Assembly: GCA_028717385.1 (NCBI GenBank)
Contig: JAQUNW010000012.1
Span: 1 to 32,061 of the forward strand
Direction of reading: 5' to 3'
DNA length: 32,061 nucleotides
From: Dehalococcoidales bacterium
GTDB lineage: Bacteria; Chloroflexota; Dehalococcoidia; Dehalococcoidales; CSSed11-197
Positions within the stretch are counted from its first letter, which is position 1; the number at the start of each line of letters is the position of its first letter. Positions 10,166-18,422 of the stretch are shown here, in pieces. The position numbers were made by a program, and so were the translations under genes. The notes under the pieces are model-generated. The model made no database searches, was not told the DNA's origin, and saw nothing but the letters and a program-made list of their open reading frames with translations.

Positions 10166-10252
10166 CCCTTTCAAAGTTACCGCGTGGCGGAAGGCAAAGT
10201 TCCTTATTGGCAAGATTAACAGCCAGCTAGTTTAGTTTTAGGAGGGCACGAC

Positions 10253-15039: not shown

Positions 15040-15540
15040 ATGACTGGCTTCTTATTGCTGGCGCATATTGCCATGCCGGGTATTTTTAGGCTATTATTAA
15101 CTATTCTTAAACCTGCTATTGACCTTGGTTACATCATGCATATTCTAGCCGTTGAATATTATTGTTTTATAGTACTGCTTTCTATATCCACTATTCAGGC
15201 TGCTTCCTCCTATAGCGGGATAAGTGGGATTACTTTTTTCCAAAGACGTGCATGGAACTATATGATATCTAGTGTTATTGCTATCCCATGCCTGGCGATT
15301 CTGTTAACATGGAACTGGCATAAACCCACCGGAGTAATAGAAGGAGCTGAACAATTTTACCTTTTCATGGCAGGAATTGTAAGTGCAATCGGGCTTACAA
15401 TTATTATTTCTTCTCTTGTCAATCACAGGCGTTTTAAGAACAACCAGGGCGACCTCGAAAGTGGCTTTGAAGCATTGAAAAACAGAACGTTTTTCCAGGC
15501 TGCCAGCCTACGCTTAAGGAGTTTAAAATGGCGTGGCTAG
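15040..15540 (+). CDS. Small integral membrane protein of unknown function
   Basis: 166 residues with four strongly hydrophobic segments: GFLLLAHIAMPGIFRLLL, HILAVEYYCFIVLLSIS, WNYMISSVIAIPCLAILLTW and FYLFMAGIVSAIGLTIIISS. A charged C-terminal tail follows, ending LRSLKWRG. I recognise no family. The start is unsure: the frame is also open from GTG 14992 and ATG 15016, both of which overlap the holA start region, and none has a clear ribosome binding site. The 3' end overlaps the PAP2 gene by 13 nt, so the two are probably translated together and may work together in the membrane. Confidence 0.65.
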   Translation: MTGFLLLAHIAMPGIFRLLLTILKPAIDLGYIMHILAVEYYCFIVLLSISTIQAASSYSGISGITFFQRRAWNYMISSVIAIPCLAILLTWNWHKPTGVIEGAEQFYLFMAGIVSAIGLTIIISSLVNHRRFKNNQGDLESGFEALKNRTFFQAASLRLRSLKWRG

Positions 15541-16115
15541 AGCTCGACCAAAACCTGTTTTTATGGATTAATGGCCTCAGCGGACGCTTCCCGATAATTG
15601 ACAATATTATTTCTGCTATAGCTAATGATTATTTCATAATTGTATTCTGCTGTATGATAATGATGGCTCTTTGGACAGGCATAAAAAATGCCGATAATCG
15701 CCGTCACATGCAAAAAGGAATCATGGTGGCTTCTTCTTCATTAGGTACTGCCCAGGGAATGGTAGAAATTATTAATAATTTTTGGCAACGCCCGCGGCCG
15801 TTTGAAGAGCTTGACGTCAATTTGTTGTTCTACCCACCCACCGATCCTTCTTTCCCCTCAAATTCTGCATCAGTACTGTTCGCAATGGCTTGGGGAATAT
15901 TTCTGTATGATCGCAAGGTGGGATCCGTCCTGCTGGCTATTGCTGCCAGCATGGGTTTTTCCCGAGTTTATGTAGGAATTCATTATCCACTGGATATAAT
16001 TGGAGGAGCAGCCCTCGGATTTTTGGTGGCATTATTTTTTACGATTGTTTTCAAACTTTTAAATCCACTGCTTGATCGTATTATTGACTTAATGCGCTTG
16101 TTTTTCCTGGCGTGA
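15528..16115 (+). CDS. PAP2-superfamily membrane protein with altered active site
   Basis: 195-residue polytopic protein related to undecaprenyl-diphosphate phosphatases of the BcrC type. Motif 3 is intact (S145-R146 ... H152 ... D156, SRVYVGIHYPLD) and the RPRPF of motif 1 is present. However, the first Lys of KxxxxxxRP is Asn (N83), and the PSGH of motif 2 reads PSNS, replacing the catalytic acid His with Ser113. Other membrane segments look normal. It may be a non-hydrolytic lipid-phosphate binder or use altered chemistry. ATG 15528 has AAGGAG 6 nt upstream and overlaps the preceding membrane protein gene. Confidence 0.85.
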   Translation: MAWLELDQNLFLWINGLSGRFPIIDNIISAIANDYFIIVFCCMIMMALWTGIKNADNRRHMQKGIMVASSSLGTAQGMVEIINNFWQRPRPFEELDVNLLFYPPTDPSFPSNSASVLFAMAWGIFLYDRKVGSVLLAIAASMGFSRVYVGIHYPLDIIGGAALGFLVALFFTIVFKLLNPLLDRIIDLMRLFFLA

Positions 16116-16130
16116 AACAAGTCTTGACTA

Positions 16131-16161
16131 TTGACATCTACGGTTGGGCTCCAGTTATACT
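16131..16161 (+). promoter_or_regulatory. Promoter of the DUF47-PiT operon
   Basis: Perfect TTGACA (16131-16136) and TATACT (16156-16161), 19 nt apart (or TTATAC at 18 nt). The predicted transcription start near 16168 is downstream of the TTG at 16164, so that codon would not be on the mRNA. The AAGGAGGT at 16178-16185 would be. Confidence 0.62.
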
Positions 16162-16193
16162 AATTGAACTTTTTGCAAAGGAGGTTTATTAAT

Positions 16194-16823
16194 ATATTTA
16201 AGTTTAGTCTAACTCCCCGAGAGGAAAAATTTTTTAACCTTTTTGAGGATAGTGCTACCAATCTGGTGGATATCGCCCAGGCGCTCAAGGATATGGTAAG
16301 TATGTGGAATTCTGTTGAAGAACGGACTAAAAAAATTGCCGACCTTGAACACAGGGGGGATAGTATCACCCACGAGATAGTTGCCCGTCTTCATCAGACT
16401 TTTATCACTCCTTTCGATCGCGAGGATATCGCTATGCTGGCACAATCCATGGACGACGTTGCTGATCTTATACATTCAGCAGCGGATGATATGAATCTTT
16501 ACCGCATAGGCAAACCTACCGAGCAGTCTATCGAACTGGCAGATATAATACTGCAGGGAGCCCTCGAATTGAAAAAGGCAGTTCCCCTGCTTCGCCGTCG
16601 GTCCGACCTGAAAACCATGTTGATTCACTGCGTTGAAATCAACCGCCTTGAAAACGTTGCCGATAGGGTATACAGACAAGCCCTGGCTGAATTGTTTAAC
16701 GACAGCACTGAAGCAATTCAGGTCATTAAATGGAGGGAAATATACCAGCATCTTGAAACTGCCACCGATCGCTGCGAAGACGTTGCCAATGTACTGGAAG
16801 GAGTAGCCCTCAAAAATGCCTGA
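16194..16823 (+). CDS. DUF47/PhoU-like phosphate transport accessory protein
   Basis: 209 residues if started at 16194. The helical PhoU-like family TIGR00153/DUF47 is recognised by the N-terminus FKFSLTPREEKFFNLFED, ADLEHRGDSITHEIVARLHQTFITPFDREDI, the DDVADLI repeat and the second-half ENVADRVYRQALAELF. These proteins accompany PiT transporters and probably regulate them. The reading frame has no ATG, GTG or TTG at the proper place. A perfect AAGGAGGT (16178-16185) is 8 nt upstream of an ATA codon, and family members begin right there (M-FKFSL). The only upstream option, TTG 16164, contains the ribosome binding site within the gene and precedes the predicted transcript start. An AUA start, or a G-to-A sequence error, is inferred. 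It overlaps pit by 8 nt. Confidence 0.85.
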   Translation: MFKFSLTPREEKFFNLFEDSATNLVDIAQALKDMVSMWNSVEERTKKIADLEHRGDSITHEIVARLHQTFITPFDREDIAMLAQSMDDVADLIHSAADDMNLYRIGKPTEQSIELADIILQGALELKKAVPLLRRRSDLKTMLIHCVEINRLENVADRVYRQALAELFNDSTEAIQVIKWREIYQHLETATDRCEDVANVLEGVALKNA

Positions 16824-17817
16824 TCCCTCCCTGGCAGCTTTGATAGTCATCATTCTGTTGGCTCTGGGGTTTGGGCTGGTTAATGGTTTCAATGATGCCG
16901 CAAATGCCATTGCTACCGTAGTAGGAACCCGAACACTAACTCCACAAAAAGCAGTCTTGATGGCTGCTTTCTTCAACCTTCTCGGCGCTGCTACAGGCTC
17001 TGCAGTAGCGATCACCATAGGTAAAGGAATCCTCGCACCGGAAGCCGTTTCATTTCAAACAGTAATCGCTGCCCTGGCTTCCGTTATTATATGGACAGGA
17101 ACCGCTACTTTTCACGGTTTGCCAGTCAGCCTGACGCATGGGTTCATCGCCGCTCTGGCCGCAGCCGGACTAGCCTCTTCCGGACCTTCAGCTGTAAACT
17201 GGAGTGTTATTACTACAGTTGCTTCAGCGGTAGGCATTGCGCCTCTACTGGGATTTATTGGCGGATTTGCAGTAATGATCGCACTGCTATGGCTCTTGAG
17301 GCGGACAGCGCCTGCAACAGTACAATCACACTTTGGTAAACTGCAAATACTATCAGCCGCATTCATGGCTTACAGCCATGGCAAAAACGATGGGCAGATG
17401 CCGGTCGGTATTATTACCATGGCAATGGTTTTCTACACTGGCACCGAAGCACTGTGGGACTCAATTCCGTTCTGGATAGTGCTTGTATCAGCTATGTCTA
17501 TCAGCACAGGAACCGCATTCGGTGGCTGGAAGGTCATTAAAACCCTGGGAATGCGAGTTACCACTCTACGCCCGGTTCATGGCTTTGCTGCAGAGGCTTC
17601 CGCAGCCACAGTAATAGAAATAGCCTCATTCCTGGGCATACCCGTTAGCACAACCCACTGCATCAGTTCTTCTATTATGGGGGTCGGGGCTACACGCCGT
17701 TTTTCAGCGGTACGCTGGGGTCTTGCCGGGAACATTGTTGCCGCCTGGGTTATCACCTTTCCGGTTTGCGGTGGTTTAGGGCATCTTTTTTCCTGGTTGT
17801 TGGGCTATATTTTCTAA
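16816..17817 (+). CDS. pit: PiT-family inorganic phosphate transporter
   Basis: 333-residue membrane protein. It has the two PiT repeats: GLVNGFNDAANAIATVVGTRTL near the N-terminus and the inverted second copy with AFMAYSHGKNDGQMPVGII and GIPVSTTHCISSSIMGVG. The first repeat also has HGLPVSLTHGFIAALAAAG. Cation-coupled (Na+ or H+) phosphate uptake is expected. The ATG at 16816 overlaps the DUF47 gene by 8 nt, with AAGGAG at 16798-16803, so the pair is translationally coupled. Its stop overlaps the gmk stop by 4 nt on the other strand. Confidence 0.93.
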   Translation: MPDPSLAALIVIILLALGFGLVNGFNDAANAIATVVGTRTLTPQKAVLMAAFFNLLGAATGSAVAITIGKGILAPEAVSFQTVIAALASVIIWTGTATFHGLPVSLTHGFIAALAAAGLASSGPSAVNWSVITTVASAVGIAPLLGFIGGFAVMIALLWLLRRTAPATVQSHFGKLQILSAAFMAYSHGKNDGQMPVGIITMAMVFYTGTEALWDSIPFWIVLVSAMSISTGTAFGGWKVIKTLGMRVTTLRPVHGFAAEASAATVIEIASFLGIPVSTTHCISSSIMGVGATRRFSAVRWGLAGNIVAAWVITFPVCGGLGHLFSWLLGYIF

Positions 17818-18422
17818 GCTTGGCGCTCTGAGCGCAACTTGAGTTTTTCAGACCTGATGATGGAAATTAAATCATCCACTGCCGCATCCACCTCGCCATC
17901 ACAATTAAGCACAACGTAATCAAAAAGGTGAAGCTGGCTAAATTCGGCACCGGCAGTCTTTAAACGCAGCTCAAGATCACTGACTGATTCTGTATTGCGT
18001 TTTCTCAAGCGGTATGAAAGGGCGGATGCATCAGGTGGAGTAACAAACACAAAGCAAGCTTCGGGCATGCTCTTTTTTATTGTAGCCGCTCCCTGTATAT
18101 CCACTTTAATAATCGCGTCCCTTCCCCTTTGAATAGACTGCGCAACCTGTTTTTTCGGAACACCATACCAGTTACCATATACTCTGGCATGTTCCAGTAA
18201 TTCTCCGTTTTCTATCATCTTCATAAAAACAGGCTCTGCCACGAAGTAATAATTGACACCATCAATTTCATAATCCCTGGGGGGACGGGTAGTTAGAGTA
18301 ATAATAAAATCTGCCGGCACATTGCGTTCCTTCATTCGGTTGAGCACGGTATCCTTGCCAGCTCCAGAAGGACCCGAGACAACTAAAACGATTGGCCGAT
18401 TGACGTAATCAAAGATGATGAT
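17814..18422 (-). CDS. gmk: Guanylate kinase with no canonical start codon
   Basis: About 200 residues. Gmk phosphorylates GMP to GDP. The open frame contains the P-loop VLVVSGPSGAGKDTVLNRMK, ITLTTRPPRDYEIDGVNYYFV, ELLEHARVYGNWYGVPK and IIKVDIQGAATIKKSM, all normal. The frame begins after an in-frame TAA (18423-18425) with three ATC codons (18414-18422), then FDYVNRPIVLVVSG. The first ATG, GTG or TTG is a GTG at 18345-18347, which would cut off the P-loop and inactivate the enzyme. So translation probably starts at one of the ATC codons, possibly coupled to remA, whose stop is 4 nt upstream; a frameshift or base error is the alternative. The coordinates give the maximal frame. Confidence 0.87.
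   Translation of the reverse strand: MIIFDYVNRPIVLVVSGPSGAGKDTVLNRMKERNVPADFIITLTTRPPRDYEIDGVNYYFVAEPVFMKMIENGELLEHARVYGNWYGVPKKQVAQSIQRGRDAIIKVDIQGAATIKKSMPEACFVFVTPPDASALSYRLRKRNTESVSDLELRLKTAGAEFSQLHLFDYVVLNCDGEVDAAVDDLISIIRSEKLKLRSERQA
17823..17848 (+). terminator. Weak hairpin after pit
   Basis: GCGCT/AGCGC (17823-17827 and 17831-17835) with a 3-nt loop, then a T5 run at 17844-17848 after an 8-nt gap. It sits inside the 3' end of gmk. It is the only terminator-like structure here and is weak. Confidence 0.25.

Follow-up and report, generated by a model that had tools for sequence, protein, structure and literature searches.

The infC gene, which encodes the start-codon proofreading factor IF3, has AUU, AUA or AUC starts and is autoregulated by its own product; to our knowledge few bacterial genes besides it start at AUA or AUU. 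In Staphylococcus aureus, infC and ccpN (both AUA) and cvfC1 (AUU) have strong Shine-Dalgarno (SD) sequences and yield about 10% of the output of AUG, and the starts of Staphylococcus ccpN and cvfC1 were established by ribosome profiling and reporters (PMC13009471). The Streptomyces sigR gene starts at GTC, with IF3 repression demonstrated (PMC5472188). In E. coli, according to an entry in the reference list of PMC13009471, the AUU start of pcnB limits expression.

Here, we describe a DUF47/PhoU_div gene that very probably starts at AUA, found in a 32,061-nt stretch of DNA (the window, taken at its full length; coordinates in Table 1) from the draft genome (G000; 1.37 Mb, 71 contigs) of an uncultured Dehalococcoidales bacterium. 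Like infC, the gene has a strong SD followed by a near-cognate AUH codon as its probable start, an arrangement that is kept from species to species; unlike autoregulated infC, DUF47 is a phosphate-transport accessory gene, and we know of no tie between it and initiation. The AUA or AUU codon with an extended SD, conserved within a lineage, is also what ccpN and cvfC1 present, whereas those starts come from profiling and reporters and the DUF47 start is known from sequence alone, in another phylum (PMC13009471). As in sigR, the non-canonical first codon is conserved within the lineage, occurs with AGGAGGTG, opens the first gene of a two-gene operon and is misannotated to an upstream canonical codon; unlike sigR, with its GTC and demonstrated IF3 repression, DUF47 has AUA/AUU and would be IF3-sensitive by analogy (PMC5472188). 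E. coli pcnB, as far as that reference list describes it, shares the AUU start and differs in gene and lineage. The kind of feature is known; what appears to be new, among the papers searched, is its occurrence in this gene and this lineage and the pattern of its conservation.

The predicted DUF47 protein matches PF01865 (DUF47/PhoU_div) with E=2.4e-33 and 115.7 bits, above the Pfam gathering cut-off of 24.4, and scores 75.8 bits against the hypothetical equivalog TIGR00153, below the curated cut-off of 104.3. It adjoins a co-oriented Pit-family transporter gene, the arrangement of a pit-accessory operon. Wherever the genus has this pair, in five species, the stop of DUF47 and the ATG of pit overlap by 8 nt, so pit translation may follow that of DUF47, possibly being coupled to it via the overlapping start codon. 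A search of the order (156 genomes) gave a match in 124; all records found for these organisms are metagenome-assembled genomes. Within the genus the gene is present in five of six genomes, its orthologues being 87-78% identical, and neither DUF47 nor pit was found in the sixth (G001, 84% complete).

Table 1. Positions of the features discussed, in the window unless another locus (L) is given.
Feature	Position	Strand	Remarks
PAP2-family phosphatase gene	15528-16115		5' of DUF47/PhoU_div gene
-35 hexamer TTGACA of DUF47-pit promoter	16131-16136	+	CTATTGAC invariant in five species
-10 hexamer TATACT	16156-16161	+	TTATACT invariant in five species
Upstream in-frame TTG	16164-16166	+	Mechanical ORF start; probably not transcribed
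Second upstream in-frame TTG	16173-16175	+	Within predicted mRNA, without SD, not conserved
Shine-Dalgarno AAGGAGGT	16178-16185	+	Perfect anti-SD complement
Proposed AUA start codon	16194-16196	+	ATA or ATT in five congeneric species
DUF47/PhoU_div gene	16194-16823	+	209 aa counted from AUA; stop TGA 16821-16823
pit phosphate transporter gene	16816-17817	+	PF01384, E=6.5e-86, 288.9 bits
porC (pyruvate:ferredoxin oxidoreductase gamma subunit)	L080 1521-2087, G000 contig C11		AUA behind GGGAGG
ABC-transporter ATPase	L083 4300-5256, G000 contig C15	-	CUG start behind GGAGG
infC	L064 near 1017 (G000 contig C41); L202	- (L202)	ATA start

A sequence-only reading of this DNA had proposed the AUA start from a promoter, an SD and the codons that follow. 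The letters of the window bear out a perfect SD with ATA 8 nt 3' of it, and the frame after ATA reads FKFSLTPREEKFF. The proposed TTGACA/TATACT promoter is present as well and stands with a corrected spacing of 19 nt. The pair (CTATTGAC...TTATACT, TTGAC-19-TATACT) is the same in each of the five congeneric species and so goes beyond a chance match; our promoter scanner, which accepts spacers of 16-18 nt, gave no promoter here because this spacer is one above its window. The invariance of the promoter places the start of transcription shortly 5' of the SD, and its position predicts a start near 16168. Leader folding gave no structure common to the species.

An automatic caller would pick an upstream TTG, and a start at 16164 or 16173 would make the ATA an ordinary isoleucine codon: each TTG lies in frame, with no stop interrupting the reading from it, and ATA and ATT both code for Ile. 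That 16164 is the only upstream in-frame TTG, as had been stated, is not correct, the second lying 3' of the predicted transcription start. Against both of them, 16164 is 5' of that predicted start, while 16173, with the SD immediately 3' of it, lacks one on its own upstream side. Neither TTG of the source genome is conserved, and in G002, G003 and G004 the frame runs from the stop upstream to the conserved N-terminus without an ATG, GTG or TTG. Coding constraint points the same way: between the five species, codons 2-24 differ at rates of 0.19, 0.14 and 0.47 at positions 1, 2 and 3, the third position dominating here and in the remainder of the gene, whereas the ten codons upstream of ATA/ATT (aligned without gaps) differ at 0.75, 0.65 and 0.76, with no periodicity. 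Because periodicity is found 3' but not 5' of ATA/ATT, coding constraint starts at that codon, and initiation at an upstream TTG is improbable. A shorter protein could begin at the next in-frame ATG, GTG or TTG, a GTG at 16266, 24 codons on; this is a canonical codon, but it is not kept as a start in the genus, has no SD at proper spacing and would drop the constrained segment FKF-LTP-E-KFF-LFE, so that we consider it more improbable still.

Alignment of the orthologues, the check that had been suggested for this codon, gave ATA in G000, G003 and G004 and ATT in G002 and G005, each preceded by GGAGG at a gap of 6-10 nt. G005 is ambiguous because an ATG lies two codons upstream of its ATT, though only 1 nt past its SD. 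In a draft genome, with ATG one transition away from ATA, the A at 16196 could be a G misread in sequencing or assembly; as ATA or ATT also occurs in four other species, separately assembled, such an error is excluded for practical purposes. The genus alignment, the lack of a canonical upstream start in three species and the onset of periodicity all support the proposal of an AUA start, and translation of DUF47 very probably begins at 16194. The gene shares three features with the class of weak, non-canonical (AUH-type) starts: a probable first codon other than AUG, GUG or UUG, a strong and well-spaced SD, and conservation in relatives.

Outside the genus, 50 of 51 Dehalococcoidia orthologues have ATG, GTG or TTG at the aligned codon or the next one. 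Set against these canonical starts, AUH looks like a derived state that marks this genus. The remaining orthologue has CTG. In a more distant Dehalococcoidia DUF47 orthologue (L047, near 3001), CTG stands at the start position, for which its relatives have TTG.

A change in the genetic code was considered and rejected: AUA codons of the source genome align in an outgroup to Ile (53%), Val (17%), Leu (14%) and Met (3%), and AUU and AUC do likewise, which rules out reassignment of AUA to Met. A special initiator tRNA was also rejected, on the basis of an anticodon-arm pattern that would miss variants outside it: the CAU type alone was found, once in each of five genomes; G004 had no initiator-type match to this pattern.

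We propose, with a probability of roughly 0.85, that DUF47 starts at AUA/AUU; the probable purpose would be a weak start that keeps DUF47-Pit low and IF3-sensitive. Initiation would occur at AUA 16194, or at AUU in the two sister species that have it, the ordinary initiator tRNA delivering fMet and the strong SD placing the ribosome despite imperfect codon-anticodon pairing. By analogy with published starts, efficiency at this AUA would be low; a weak start discriminated against by IF3 would hold DUF47 output down, and Pit output might possibly be held low too, through the overlapping start codon. Taken on its own, the regulatory role of the codon through IF3 sensitivity stands at about even odds. 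The same start could be used without regulatory meaning, the codon having drifted in a lineage that tolerates near-cognate starts, and this account competes with the regulatory part only, as it shares the AUA start. Several other genes of the lineage also lack canonical starts, and silent third positions are almost saturated, only about 20% of them being G; the absence of ATG among the five species is therefore weak evidence of selection when taken alone, not being significant by itself. Drift under relaxed discrimination is for this reason a serious rival. Published AUA/AUU starts, however, cut output about tenfold (PMC13009471), so drift should be opposed on a gene needing normal expression, and all five species retain a strong SD. 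We regard drift as plausible, with the odds somewhat against it.

Other starts were surveyed over about 830 kb of the source genome (about 60%), compared with parts of the genomes of three congeners and of one outgroup, giving 327 genes with orthologue support. Most of the ORFs flagged were antisense noise or ordinary genes. Few genes lacked a canonical start, the clear cases being porC, an ABC-transporter ATPase and DUF47 itself. Clear non-canonical starts make up about 1% of the surveyed genes, a figure that sets a minimum and should not be read as a rate, because the survey counts only genes with a conserved N-terminus past the first canonical codon. The porC gene, directly after a tRNA gene, starts with AUA in 5/5 species of the genus, and ATA apparently lies near the expected porC start in some other families (L126, L129, L133, L135). 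The ABC-transporter ATPase start is CTG in five of the six congeneric genomes and GTG in the sixth. The infC gene was examined on purpose: its ATA does not vary among the five species of the genus, and the outgroup G013 has ATA behind AAGGAGGT. A less clear case is gmk (guanylate kinase), located behind a remA-like gene on the reverse strand of the window (17814-18422): no ATG, GTG or TTG precedes the conserved N-terminus in G000 (ATC ATC ATC TTT at 18422), G002 or G004; ATG is present in G003, and in G005 an ATA lies at SD spacing. One more gene, which by eye we take to be a site-2-type protease, has ATT in G002 and TTG in its sisters.

Two flagged genes were set aside. A prfB-like gene (L171 near 5434 in G002; also in G003 and G004) shows the known programmed frameshift (GGGG TGCGG CTT TGA C), and selD has an in-frame UGA. 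Because this TGA falls at the active-site position (SG-TGA-AAKISPGD; L213 near 10197-10199, G000 contig C2; also in G004), SelD is probably a selenoprotein.

Gene callers shift AUA/AUU starts to wrong codons, and these results suggest that a number of starts in Dehalococcoidales, an order of environmental importance, are wrongly placed by standard annotation. A phosphate-uptake operon with such a probable start across a genus, together with its companion genes, offers a testable set for IF3-dependent control. A broader possibility, which we think rather unlikely, is that the genus, and in part the order, keeps a small set of genes (infC, porC, DUF47-pit, the ABC ATPase and perhaps gmk) on AUA, AUU or CUG, jointly tuned by IF3. 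If true, both phosphate uptake and pyruvate:ferredoxin oxidoreductase would be linked to translation status by start-codon proofreading in these bacteria, whose genomes are small.
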